The notes beneath the pieces were generated by a model that was not told where the DNA came from, made no database searches, and saw only the letters and a program-made list of their open reading frames with translations. Both the position numbers and the translations under genes were made by a program. From Dyella mobilis (GTDB lineage Bacteria; Pseudomonadota; Gammaproteobacteria; Xanthomonadales; Rhodanobacteraceae), in contig NZ_JADIKF010000040.1 in NCBI RefSeq assembly GCF_016904945.1, forward strand, positions 992,001 through 1,056,000: a stretch of 64,000 nt of DNA, written 5' to 3'. Below, in pieces: positions 20,540 through 24,385 of this stretch. The stretch's first letter is position 1. The number at the start of each line of letters is the position of its first letter.

Positions 20540-21190
20540 CTAGGCCCTGGAAAGCAGGCGCCCGCCCATGGCCGCGTTGGCGGCCACCACGATGGCGACG
20601 GCCAGCGCGTGCATCAGCAGATCCGTCGCGGCGGCATCGAAGTTGTGGCAGATCTCGAGCAGGCTGGCCGAGGCGGCGGCGCTGGCCAGGCCGACCATCA
20701 CCGCCGTCAGGACCGGCCGCAGCGGACAAGCCCTGCGCAACAGCCAGATCAGCAGGCCCGACAGCGGAATCGAGAAACTGATAATGAAGATCAGGCAGTC
20801 GTTGGCGCCGTGCAGATCCATCACCGGCATGCCGGGAATGTGGGCGCGCAGGCAGCCCAGGCCGCTGGCGCCGATCCACAGCACGGTGCTGGGCACCGGC
20901 AGCCACGCCCAGGCGGTCGGGCGCCCAGGCACGGCGAGCACCAGGGCCGCCAGCACGGCAGTGACCGCCGTCAACACGGCGCCGCAGGCCGCCCAGCCAA
21001 GATCCGGCGCTGCGGCCCATCGATGCAGCATGGTATGCGCGCCGTAGTGCATGAACATCACCGCGGCAATTACTGCCACCACCAGCAGCCAGCCGAGCGC
21101 GCGCCGCCATGGCGGCGGCAGACGCCGCACCGGCGTCAGCTCGGCACCGAGCGTGTCGATCAGGGCTTCGTGGCGTGCTGCGTCGGACAT
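20540..21190 (-). CDS. nrsF: NrsF-like (DUF1109) membrane anti-sigma factor
   Basis: A 216-residue protein with about six transmembrane helices and a short cytoplasmic N-terminus ([24 protein letters not shown]-type opening). This is the DUF1109/NrsF family, polytopic anti-sigma factors that hold SigF-type ECF sigmas at the inner membrane. Cysteines lie in [11 protein letters not shown] and LRRACPLRP, the sort of residues implicated in signal sensing by relatives. It starts 5 bp after the stop of the sigma gene and ends 71 bp before rsfS on the same strand, so read-through into rsfS-rlmH is possible. Confidence 0.85.
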
Positions 21191-21195
21191 CGGGT

Positions 21196-21873
21196 TCAGG
21201 ATTCTCCGTTCATTCGGTCACGCAGCGTCTTCAGTGCGCGGTGCAGATTAACTTTCAGGGCACCGGTCTTGCGCCCCGTGTGCTCGGCAGCCTCGGCCAG
21301 CGAACGCTCGCGCAAGCCGAGTTGCTCGACCGCCTCACGCTGGCCCGGCGGCAGGGCATCAATCGCCTCGCGCAAGCGCCCGGCCTGCTGCGCGCGCTCG
21401 GTTTCGGCACTGGCATCGTCGCGGTCCGCATGCATGTCGTAAGCCCGCTCGTCGTGCACTTCGCGCCGGTCGCGACGACCGTGGCTGCGCAAGGCATCGA
21501 TCGCGCGCCGGCTGGCGATGGCCGCCAGCCATGCGTCATAGGAACGGGTCGGATCGAACGTGTGGCGTACGCGGTGGACCGTCAACAGCGTCTCCTGCAC
21601 CACATCGTCCAAGGCATCTACCGCCACGCCCTGCCTTCGCGCCACGGCCCGAATCAAGGCCACCGAATCGGTCAGCAGGCGCGCATAGGCGCGCTGGTCG
21701 CCCGCTTGCGCGGCGGCCATCCATGCTGCCCGCTGCCGGTCAGCCTGTTCGCTGGCGTGGATGGTTTCGGTCGACACGGCCTTCGGGTTACCTGGCTCCC
21801 GAGCTGGGAGCCCGCGTAGTAGTACCCACGCGTCACCAAAGGTCAAGCTATCGAAAGTCGGAGAATGCGCCAT
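21196..21873 (-). CDS. ECF sigma factor of the SigF type
   Basis: Up to 225 residues. Sigma region 2 begins about residue 55 ([20 protein letters not shown], then [19 protein letters not shown] and [17 protein letters not shown]). Region 4 is [20 protein letters not shown] followed by [20 protein letters not shown]. The start is uncertain. ATG 21873 leaves a 23-nt leader after the promoter at 21904-21929. GTG 21777 and ATG 21720 are alternatives, because residues 1-32 look non-conserved and contain a perfect inverted repeat (21794-21812). The nrsF gene follows by 5 bp. Predicted targets are its own operon and dipZ-msrB. Confidence 0.9.
21766..21791 (-). promoter_or_regulatory. Third GTAACC-N16-CGAA match, inside the sigma gene
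   Basis: Minus strand, 21791 to 21766: GTAACC, 16 bases, CGAA, the same pattern as the two promoters upstream. If active it would start mRNA near 21759 and require translation from ATG 21720. It may instead be a chance match or a remnant of promoter duplication. Confidence 0.35.
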
Positions 21874-21903: not shown

Positions 21904-21929
21904 TTCGTTGCGTTTCGAGCACTGGTTAC
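21904..21929 (-). promoter_or_regulatory. Autoregulatory promoter of the sigma/nrsF operon
   Basis: Minus strand, 21929 to 21904: GTAACC, 16 bases, CGAA. The predicted start is near 21896. Its -35 lies back to back (24 bp apart) with the identical promoter on the plus strand at 21954-21979. Confidence 0.75.
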
Positions 21930-21953
21930 CGCTAAAAAAAATGGCGCACACTC

Positions 21954-21979
21954 GTAACCGCTCCGCCCCGCGTGGCGAA
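21954..21979 (+). promoter_or_regulatory. Sigma-dependent promoter of dipZ-msrB
   Basis: GTAACC (21954-21959), 16 bases, CGAA (21976-21979), the same pattern as the divergent sigma-gene promoter. The predicted start near 21987 leaves a 27-nt leader to ATG 22014, which supports that start over the GTG at 21972. Confidence 0.75.
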
Positions 21980-22013: not shown

Positions 22014-23735
22014 ATGATCCTGCTGATCCTTGCCTTTCTAGGTGGCGTGCTGACCATTCTCAGCCCCTGCATCCTGCCCGTACTGCCTTTCGTATTCGCA
22101 CGAGCTGATCGTCCATTCGCGCGTAACGGCTTGCCAATGTTGATCGGCATGGCACTCACTTTCGCACTGGTAGCCACGCTCGCCGCTGTCGGCGGCAGTT
22201 GGGCGGTACGCGCCAACCAATACGGGCGCTATGCCGCCATGGCAGTGCTTGCGCTGCTTGGACTCACCCTGCTTTCTTCCCGCGTAGCCCAATGGCTCAC
22301 CCGCCCGTTCGTGGCATTGGGCAACCGGCTGAGTTCGCGCTCGAACGCGCAACACGATTCGGCGTGGTCGTCCGCAGGTCTAGGCATCGCCACCGGCTTG
22401 CTGTGGGCGCCTTGCGCGGGCCCCATCCTCGGATTGTTGCTGACCGGTGCGGCACTCAAAGGGGCTAGCGTGCAAACCACCTTGCTGCTGCTCACCTATG
22501 CCTGCGGCGCGGCGGTTTCGCTCGCCGCCGCACTACTGGTTGGCGGCGGCGTATTTGCAGCGATGAAGCGCTCGCTTGGCGCTGGCGAATGGGCGCGCCG
22601 CGGACTGGGTGCGCTGGTGCTGGCCGGAGTTGTCGTGGTGGCGCTGGGTGCAGATACCGGATGGCTGACGCGCGCATCGCTGGCCAATACCGGCAGCATC
22701 GAGCAAAAGCTGATCGACGCCATAAGCCCCTCGCCCGTGGCGGCGGCCACCACGCATTCGGCCGGAGAGTCCTTGCCGGTGGAAGGCGAAATGCCTTCGC
22801 TGTCGGGGGCCACCCAATGGCTCAACAGCGCGCCGCTGACGCCCGCATCGCTGCGCGGCAAGGTGGTACTGGTGGATTTCTGGACCTATTCCTGCATCAA
22901 CTGCATTCGCTCGCTGCCCTATGTGAATGCCTGGGCACAGAAATATCGCGATCACGGCCTGGTGGTGATCGGTGTGCATTCGCCGGAATTCGCCTTCGAA
23001 AAAGATCCCGCCAATATCGCCAAGGCGATCAAGCATTTCGGCATCACCTACCCCGTTGCAGTAGATAGCAACTATGCGATCTGGAAAGGCTTCAACAACG
23101 AATACTGGCCAGCGCATTACTTCATCGACGCACAAGGGCACATTCGTGCGCACCACTATGGCGAAGGCGCCTACACCGCCAGCGAGGACGAGATCCGCCG
23201 CCTGTTGACCGAAGCCGGCTACCAGAACCTGCCGGGCGGCTACGTGCAACCCGGTGCAACGGGCGCAGAAGCGGCCGGCTCCGGCGACGTCAGCCGATCA
23301 CCGGAAACCTATGTGGGTTATGCAAAAAGCAAGAACTTCGTGAGTGGGCCGATATCGCAAGACTACGAGGATCATTATCGCGCGCCCTTGCTGGAGGTGA
23401 ATCAATGGGGGCTCAAGGGTTTTTGGACCGTCGAAGCACAAAGCGCCTCGTTGAATCGCGCGGACGGCAGCATCGTCTATCGCTTTCGTGGCCGCGACCT
23501 GCACCTGGTGCTGGGACCGGGCAAGGACGGCAAGCCTGTTCGCTTCCGCGTCACCCTTGACGGCAAAGCGCCCGGCGACGATCACGGCGCCGATACCGAC
23601 GCCGACGGCAATGGCGTCGTCACCGGACAACGGCTCTACCAATTGGTGCGTCAGGCGCACGGTACCGGCGACCGCAACTTCGAAATTACTTTTCTCGATC
23701 CGGGCGTGTACGCCTACGCCTTCACCTTCGGTTGA
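22014..23735 (+). CDS. dipZ: DipZ-type thiol:disulfide transporter (CcdA + thioredoxin + C-terminal domain)
   Basis: A 573-residue inner-membrane protein that carries electrons across the membrane to periplasmic thiol enzymes. Residues 1-215 form a CcdA/DsbD-like membrane domain with the paired cysteines Cys19 (LSPCILP) and Cys134 (WAPCAGP). A periplasmic thioredoxin-like domain follows (about 262-410) with the active site C294-I-N-C297 after VDFWTYS. The C-terminal 150 residues match the DipZ beta-rich domain (YVGYAKSKNFVSG, VYRFRGRDLHLVLGP, FLDPGVYAYAFTFG). It is followed by msrB after 20 bp, so it is the likely reductant source for MsrB. Confidence 0.9.
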   Translation: MILLILAFLGGVLTILSPCILPVLPFVFARADRPFARNGLPMLIGMALTFALVATLAAVGGSWAVRANQYGRYAAMAVLALLGLTLLSSRVAQWLTRPFVALGNRLSSRSNAQHDSAWSSAGLGIATGLLWAPCAGPILGLLLTGAALKGASVQTTLLLLTYACGAAVSLAAALLVGGGVFAAMKRSLGAGEWARRGLGALVLAGVVVVALGADTGWLTRASLANTGSIEQKLIDAISPSPVAAATTHSAGESLPVEGEMPSLSGATQWLNSAPLTPASLRGKVVLVDFWTYSCINCIRSLPYVNAWAQKYRDHGLVVIGVHSPEFAFEKDPANIAKAIKHFGITYPVAVDSNYAIWKGFNNEYWPAHYFIDAQGHIRAHHYGEGAYTASEDEIRRLLTEAGYQNLPGGYVQPGATGAEAAGSGDVSRSPETYVGYAKSKNFVSGPISQDYEDHYRAPLLEVNQWGLKGFWTVEAQSASLNRADGSIVYRFRGRDLHLVLGPGKDGKPVRFRVTLDGKAPGDDHGADTDADGNGVVTGQRLYQLVRQAHGTGDRNFEITFLDPGVYAYAFTFG

Positions 23736-23755: not shown

Positions 23756-24385
23756 GTGACTTCCATCTCTCACAACCTCGCCATGGATCGCCGCCGCTTC
23801 CTGCTCGCCGTACTGGGCGGCGGTGCCGCGTTCACCGTTGGCGGCCTGTCGGCGGCTCGCTTGTTTGCCGGCGGCAAAGGCACCGGCACGACGGCTGCAG
23901 CCACACCGGCGGCGTCACCGGCACAAACTCTGTTGCTGGAATGCTTTTCCGACGACGACGGCCACAACCTGGGTCCATGCAACGTACGCAAGCTGGTACT
24001 GACCGACGAACAATGGCATCAGCGCCTTTCCGATGCGGCTTTCAATGTCATGCGCCGCAACGGTACGGAACGCGCATTCAGCGGTCCGCACGAAAAACCA
24101 AACAGCAAGGGCATGTATCGCTGCGCCGGCTGCGACACGGCGCTGTTCGACGCGGCCACGCAATTCGACTCCGGCACGGGCTGGCCCAGTTTCTGGCAAC
24201 CGATCGCCAAGCAGAATGTCATCCAAGGCAATGACACCAGCTACGGAATGGTCCGCACGGCGATCAGCTGTGCCGGCTGCGACAGCCATCTGGGCCACGT
24301 CTTCGACGATGGTCCGGCACCGACCGGTCTACGCTACTGCATGAATTCGGTGGCGATGCGGTTTGTCGCGTTCCGGGTCAGCTAG
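23756..24385 (+). CDS. msrB: Exported peptide-methionine (R)-S-oxide reductase MsrB
   Basis: A 209-residue enzyme that reduces methionine-R-sulfoxide in damaged proteins. The catalytic Cys195 is in GLRYCMNSVAMRF. Zinc cysteines are Cys123/126 and Cys172/175, and GTGWPSF is intact. The N-terminus carries a twin-arginine-like signal (DRRRFLLAVLGGGAAF), so it should act in the periplasm, where DipZ can reduce it. An insert before the MsrB core (about 55-80) carries two further cysteines (Cys63, Cys75). GTG 23756 is preceded by AAGGAG at 6 nt. The last 8 bases overlap the convergent nadD. Confidence 0.93.
   Translation: MTSISHNLAMDRRRFLLAVLGGGAAFTVGGLSAARLFAGGKGTGTTAAATPAASPAQTLLLECFSDDDGHNLGPCNVRKLVLTDEQWHQRLSDAAFNVMRRNGTERAFSGPHEKPNSKGMYRCAGCDTALFDAATQFDSGTGWPSFWQPIAKQNVIQGNDTSYGMVRTAISCAGCDSHLGHVFDDGPAPTGLRYCMNSVAMRFVAFRVS

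Follow-up and report, generated by a model that had tools for sequence, protein, structure and literature searches.

The closest described systems to the locus studied here are the sigma factors of ECF group 16 (ECF16) with their NrsF-type anti-sigma factors, as reported in the accessible parts of three papers (PMC3511200, PMC3420878, and PMC8315932). The sequence bound by Caulobacter SigF is GTAACC-N16-CGAA (PMC3511200), the consensus tGTAACc-N16-CGAA has been cited for ECF16 as a whole (PMC3420878), and promoters of the same type have been mapped in Brucella (PMC8315932). In Bradyrhizobium japonicum, EcfF controls three methionine sulfoxide (MetSO) reductases, a DsbD-type protein, and a periplasmic thioredoxin, and joint regulation by EcfF/OsrA of a periplasmic Msr and the proteins delivering its electrons is put forward as speculation in the Discussion of that paper (PMC3420878), so the idea of such co-regulation is not new.

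We compared the window (the whole stretch of 64,000 nucleotides of Dyella mobilis DNA that was analyzed) with these systems. Like B. japonicum EcfF/OsrA, it has an ECF16-type sigma factor, a DUF1109/NrsF-type anti-sigma factor, and a GTAAC-type promoter, and the autoregulation reported for EcfF/OsrA is proposed here as well (PMC3420878). The B. japonicum thioredoxin is membrane-anchored and periplasmic, and the electron carriers there are separate proteins, whereas DipZ in the window joins membrane and thioredoxin domains; the accessible text of PMC3420878 describes no back-to-back layout of sigma and msr genes. B. japonicum is an alphaproteobacterium whose system was studied with mutants and primer extension (PMC3420878), whereas the system of the window is predicted from sequence.

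The ECF16 system of Brucella melitensis, BcrS/AbcS with bcrXQP, resembles the window in that a sigma/NrsF-family pair adjoins its target operon under the same type of promoter, and it includes a methionine-rich MXKDX protein together with a MetSO reductase (PMC8315932); to judge by the gene numbering, B0022-23 would be divergent from B0021-19. The Brucella target is, however, a quinone-fed MsrPQ-type system, against a thiol-dependent MsrB with DipZ here, and the bcr system is induced by hypochlorous acid, as tests there showed (PMC8315932). SigF/NrsF of Caulobacter crescentus, the prototype of ECF16, shares the GTAACC-N16-CGAA promoter with the window; two conserved cysteines of its NrsF matter for function, and its target operon CC3254-57 adjoins sigF and has a very similar promoter (PMC3511200), the gene numbers suggesting that CC3253-52 lies back-to-back with CC3254-57. 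The Caulobacter regulon differs in comprising DUF692, DUF2063, DUF2282, and DoxX genes and a YedY-like oxidase, and msrA homologs were unchanged there, as far as the accessible text goes (PMC3511200). In Azospira suillum, the yedYZ-mrpX genes repair MetSO in the periplasm, the role proposed here for the window genes, and include a methionine-rich scavenger (cited in PMC8315932). The A. suillum reductase is of the YedYZ type, whereas MsrA and MsrB are involved here. The yedYZ-mrpX genes are reportedly under SigF/NrsF control. No report of the system in Dyella or Rhodanobacter was found among the matches listed for these genera with MetSO reductase, NrsF, or DipZ in open-licence literature (titles and abstract openings).

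Predicted divergent promoters and the genes they face

The features of the locus are as follows (positions are those of the window):

20540..21190, minus strand: predicted NrsF-family membrane anti-sigma factor (PF06532, E = 2.9e-22)
21196..21873, minus strand: ECF sigma factor (Pfam Sigma70_r2 and Sigma70_r4_2; ATG start at 21873 probable)
21766..21791, minus strand: third exact GTAACC-N16-CGAA match, within the sigma coding frame (N-terminal extension), overlooked in the original prediction
21904..21929, minus strand: predicted ECF16-type promoter toward sigma-nrsF (GTAACC, N16, CGAA(T); exact match)
21954..21979, plus strand: predicted ECF16-type promoter toward dipZ-msrB (GTAACC, N16, CGAA(T); exact match)
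22014..23735, plus strand: DipZ (DsbD/CcdA-type membrane domain, thioredoxin-like domain, and C-terminal Thioredoxin_10; PF02683, PF08534, and PF17991)
23756..24385, plus strand: MsrB (SelR domain), downstream of dipZ (GTG start at 23756 picked by eye)

The original prediction placed GTAACC-N16-CGAA on both strands, 24 bp apart, and both copies are exact at the coordinates given: GTAACCAGTGCTCGAAACGCAACGAA on the minus strand (21929-21904) and GTAACCGCTCCGCCCCGCGTGGCGAA on the plus strand (21954-21979), with 24 bp separating the 5′ ends of the two −35 elements (GTAACC). Its statement that Caulobacter SigF promoters have a similar GTAACC-type −35 element was right, the published sequence being GTAACC-N16-CGAA (PMC3511200, accessible part), and its naming of the sigma factor as SigF-type agrees with two findings: the motif equals the promoter published for ECF16/SigF (accessible parts of PMC3511200, PMC3420878, and PMC8315932), and the next gene downstream of sigma is nrsF (PF06532, E = 2.9e-22).

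In 100 shuffles of the window, the motif occurred 0.07 times on average (SD 0.29, maximum 2), against three matches in the real window, a number reached in 0/100 shuffles. The third match (21791-21766) was considered as a second sigma promoter and rejected: the coding frame opens upstream of it, and it recurs at the same place in only 3/88 related loci (window counted). With so little recurrence, and lying inside the sigma coding frame, it is probably due to chance.

The predicted sigma start codon lies 30 nt downstream of the −10 element of the minus-strand site. We preferred this ATG (21873) and set aside a GTG at 21777 because an in-frame start codon follows the −10 element by 15–60 nt in 88/88 sigma loci (66 ATG, 13 TTG, and 9 GTG). 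About 47 aa precede the conserved sigma core (RAAWMAAAQ). Differences at codon positions 1–3 were 0.33, 0.34, and 0.38 in this extension and 0.10, 0.05, and 0.29 in the core, and in the extension they are not diagnostic of coding. The N-terminal extension (21733-21873, minus strand; ∼47 aa) evolves fast, with an LTxxGxxxLD-like stretch that recurs in relatives, and a strong inverted repeat, GGCTCCC-GAGCT-GGGAGCC, lies within it at 21794-21812.

The domain test on DipZ found the DsbD/CcdA membrane domain, the thioredoxin-like domain, and the C-terminal domain all present; we take DipZ to be the name for the domain order PF02683-PF08534-PF17991. Its likelier start is ATG 22014 (or GTG 22011), because the listed GTG 21972 falls inside the promoter. 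MsrB scores above the curated cut-offs (PF01641, 156.7 bits; TIGR00357, 168.7 bits) and, judged by eye, seems to carry a Tat signal (RRRFL); given this signal and the membrane and thioredoxin-like domains of DipZ, both proteins fit the envelope. The NrsF model has six long helices (AlphaFold2, mean pLDDT 87.4), and the protein is the single NrsF match in the whole D. mobilis genome.

Conservation of the sites and further sites in the genome

An NrsF match was found in 108 of the 197 family genomes searched, in most of them a single one, and loci with a sigma match at least 60% identical form a set of 88 (window included). Dropped before this count were the pattern loci of the D. mobilis genome itself (L001-L008), duplicates of the window or of another locus (L030, L034, and L037), and loci whose sigma match was absent or <60% identical (L009-L027 and L117); G058 (contig end), the weak or partial matches of G172, G007 (second), G180 (second), G190, and G089 (second), and second copies of DUF692-type NrsF were left out of the locus set. 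Conservation of the motif in relatives had been put forward as a test of the original prediction, and it was found on both sides: the sigma-facing site (GTAACn-N16-CGAA) is kept in 88/88 loci, by a search pattern that itself required the −10 letters and failed at no sigma gene, and the dipZ- or msrB-facing site in 86/86 loci with either gene in reach (L074 and L084 have neither). The spacer is 16 nt in 88/88 sigma-facing sites and in 82/87 target-facing sites, being 15 nt in the other five (one locus, L047, has two target-facing sites, hence 87). Apart from its leading t, which is not conserved in the dipZ-linked clade, the consensus tGTAACc-N16-CGAA is present in this clade at the sigma operon and at the targets. 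At six loci where dipZ was not found beside sigma, msrB itself is divergent and carries the site, and at seven loci with dipZ >1 kb away, dipZ still has a site of its own. A second genome set (the best 80 of 152 matches, largely repeating the same species) gave 77/77 for the target-facing site at loci with dipZ or msrB and 79/79 for the sigma-facing site at evaluable loci; L413 starts inside the operon (hence 79), and L399, L413, and L415 have neither dipZ nor msrB in reach (hence 77).

The genome-wide motif search proposed alongside gave a divided answer. The 10-base pattern GTAACC-N16-CGAA was weak (11 matches vs. 8 for the pattern read backwards), and a relaxed pattern gave a small excess (12 vs. 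8); with one conserved base added (GTAACC-N16-CGAAT) there were seven sites vs. none for the reversed control. Five of these seven face sigma, dipZ-msrB, a thioredoxin (PF00085; signal peptide by eye), a lipoprotein-like MsrA (PF01625), and a second MsrB, msrB2 (PF01641), and the genes faced by the other two, identified by eye as a LuxR-type regulator and a phosphoglycerate-mutase-like protein, are off theme. Neither these two sites (C31:1188417 and C33:515690) nor those of the relaxed pattern were taken as targets. A distance of 4 bp separates the thioredoxin site from a GTAACT-N16-CGAA site that lies back-to-back with it and faces a CcdA-like protein (PF02683). The start codon comes ∼30 nt past the −10 element at sigma, dipZ, thioredoxin, msrA, and msrB2, and 76–104 nt past it at the candidates on the ccdA side.

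The msrA site was present in 18/18 NrsF-bearing family genomes examined. Within the genus (16 genomes), the ccdA-facing site was found in 16/16 and the thioredoxin-facing site in 15/16, the remaining one lacking an exact −10 element. For msrB2 the site was present in 4/4 close orthologs (≥87%) and in 0/5 homologs at 69–74% identity, so its link to the regulon holds in some species only; the stops flagged as internal in five msrB2 homologs turned out to mark where the genes end. Weak thioredoxin homologs had the site in 0/14 cases, and among 21 further msrB loci it occurred at one only, L264, at −292, which is the sigma-adjacent msrB of G003. Original expectations of a compact sigma regulon with dipZ-msrB are borne out in their computable parts, the sites being conserved as above (88/88 and 86/86), and the regulon looks larger than was envisaged.

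As a control we took, from the 89 family genomes (out of 197) without an NrsF match, the 20 that carry a name. The site was present at 0/25 of their MsrA loci (19 genomes; 27 loci minus two contig-end fragments of G037, L317 and L324), many of which are only 40–54% identical and may be paralogs, the closest (67, 59, and 58%) also being without it. A full-length DipZ match was found in only one of the 20 genomes, and the site was present at 0/4 dipZ-like loci examined, the best of 30 DipZ-search loci (one full-length at 52%, three with the C-terminal half only). Outside the family, at the order level, 0/11 MsrA loci from 12 genomes had the site.

Two kinds of neighbors were observed besides. 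The motif precedes a DoxX-like membrane protein in three same-genus genomes (L121, L133, and L140; PF07681 in one tested), and DoxX genes belong to the Caulobacter SigF regulon (PMC3511200, accessible part). Downstream of nrsF, many relatives encode a secreted-looking methionine-rich repeat protein (L036, L040, L048, L056, and L063; further L082, L086, L089, L095, and others). At least 14% Met over 50 residues was found at 26/77 evaluable loci of the second genome set vs. 3/204 background stretches, and when TIGR02953 (MXKDX) was run on three of the Met-rich proteins, one passed (60.0 bits, cut-off 41) and two fell short (38.7 and 31.6 bits). Neither the window nor any of the 13 other evaluable loci of the genus has such a protein after nrsF. 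The protein may be a sacrificial methionine sink. The MXKDX link is known elsewhere, since the accessible part of PMC8315932 reports an ECF16-controlled MXKDX protein in Brucella.

Other NrsF loci, NrsF cysteines, and promoter spacing

A survey of 369 genomes of the class (D. mobilis included) returned an NrsF match in 21, over the cut-off in 15. Six of the 14 loci from other families have a DUF692 gene near sigma. At L436 and L438, from another family of the class, the sigma/NrsF pair is divergent from a thioredoxin-ccdA operon, and the gap between sigma and thioredoxin contains no exact motif; at L425, L426, L431, L432, L435, and L437 no other query gene was found near NrsF or sigma. L437 and L438 share a near-identical site, GTAACTTAGCGCT(A/G)ATAATCGCGAA, away from the sigma start. 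Within the family, both strands carry the motif at 18/18 high-scoring NrsF loci, 15 of which include DUF692 in the stretch analyzed, and the back-to-back layout therefore seems common to sigma/NrsF switches. In two genomes of the window's genus, G163 (L163) and G154 (L164), the dipZ-type NrsF gene is accompanied by three high-scoring NrsF genes, with several motif copies around them. In a sigma tree of 48 rows, with no named ECF16 reference included, the 15 dipZ-linked rows form one group (100/99); branches elsewhere are long, so the placement between groups is unsure. Rows L009-L026 are labeled DUF692-linked in this tree, DUF692 being present in 15/18 of those stretches.

C113 and C132 are invariant in 77/77 clade NrsF proteins aligned (window included; 11 of the 88 sequences were dropped for odd ORF length), with C155 in 61 and C181 in 67. 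C132 aligns with a column of Cys in 18/18 high-scoring family NrsF and 14/14 class-level NrsF, C113 is largely clade-specific (just 2 of those 18 family proteins have Cys there), and C181 lies one column away from the Cys of other NrsF proteins and is missing in 10/77 clade members. The conserved cysteines are C131/C181 in Caulobacter and C129/C179 in OsrA; in our alignment, of clade, family, and class-level NrsF proteins, the match between the second conserved cysteine of the clade and the other NrsF proteins is not clean. From the order of helices in the model, C113 and C132 would bracket a periplasmic loop.

The gaps between divergent −35 elements cluster at 2–5, 13–16, and 22–29 bp at two loci (window 21904-21979; L165 and L209-L224), and short gaps of 6–12 and 17–21 bp are unused. 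For 31 genus-deduplicated gaps <30 bp, the best period was 10.7 (R = 0.68; 0/5000 uniform draws as high); values within one genus are related, gaps >30 bp show no visible phase, and at L047, with its two target-facing sites, the 14-bp gap was used and the overlapping one (−16) left out. A stricter test on 17 values gave 1 in 5000, with binning by tens, which favors the result. The clustering suggests helical phasing, and we trust the spacing test only in part.

Proposed regulon and competing explanations

We consider it highly probable (about 0.88), from the sequence comparisons, that the ECF16-type sigma/NrsF pair controls itself and envelope MetSO repair together with its electron supply. 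The regulon probably also holds msrA, the divergent thioredoxin/ccdA pair, and, in some species, the second msrB. The six-helix NrsF would hold the sigma factor at the membrane, and oxidation in the envelope, probably acting via the NrsF cysteines, would free it, by analogy with EcfF/OsrA. The freed sigma factor would transcribe its own operon and dipZ-msrB from the putative back-to-back promoters, and likewise the secreted thioredoxin and the CcdA-like transporter (the second back-to-back pair), the lipoprotein-like MsrA, and the second MsrB. DipZ and CcdA/thioredoxin may then carry cytoplasmic electrons to MsrA and MsrB, which, if the signals read by eye place them correctly in the envelope, would repair MetSO there.

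The two −35 elements also form an inverted repeat, GGTTAC-N24-GTAACC, with similar inverted pairs at thioredoxin/ccdA, as would suit an operator for a dimeric regulator in place of two promoters. We regard such an operator as very improbable, given that msrA (18/18) and 3/4 close msrB2 orthologs carry a single forward site with N16-CGAA, ∼57–60 nt before the start codon where aligned; moreover, half-sites lie anywhere from 2 bp to >2 kb apart, each promoter remains next to its gene where others intervene, and the full motif matches mapped ECF16 promoters. A chance match in a GC-rich gap might be argued from the 10-base pattern, with its 11 genomic matches against 8 for the reversed control, but conservation in 88/88, 86/86, and, in the second genome set, 77/77 loci leaves chance almost no credibility.

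The sites could also be genuine promoters of which only the one at the sigma operon needs this sigma factor, dipZ-msrB being transcribed with a different ECF sigma factor of similar specificity, such as a DUF692-linked SigF paralog. The 18 high-scoring family NrsF loci (15 with DUF692) do show the motif on both strands, and NrsF genes of both kinds coexist in G154 and G163, of the window's genus; however, the D. mobilis genome, like most with NrsF, has a single NrsF match, and the site is present at 0/25 MsrA loci in family genomes without NrsF, so we give a second sigma factor little more than token weight, about the same as the operator.

A sigma/NrsF pair controlling both itself and the repair genes is thus our preferred reading. 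An extension of it, which we offer tentatively and think rather unlikely, takes the divergent promoters as one coupled unit and joins to them a lineage-specific NrsF whose C113/C132 pair would act as a disulfide sensor and so link oxidation in the envelope to a full MetSO cycle. With both −35 elements retained on one face of the helix, transcription of sigma and of the repair operon would be coordinated, or set in competition, through two holoenzymes or through upstream contacts in common, and the cycle would run from methionine-rich sink proteins (in some species) to MsrA, MsrB, DipZ, and CcdA/thioredoxin.

The comparison points to at least two classes of target for NrsF-type switches, DUF692 clusters and MetSO repair, with a promoter sequence in common, so that the question of how two switches in one cell stay apart can be tested directly. 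For the family, which is mostly of soil (Dyella, Rhodanobacter, Frateuria, and Fulvimonas), the analysis defines a small stress regulon on the basis of sequence, and this regulon predicts which periplasmic electron carriers would feed the envelope MsrA and MsrB.
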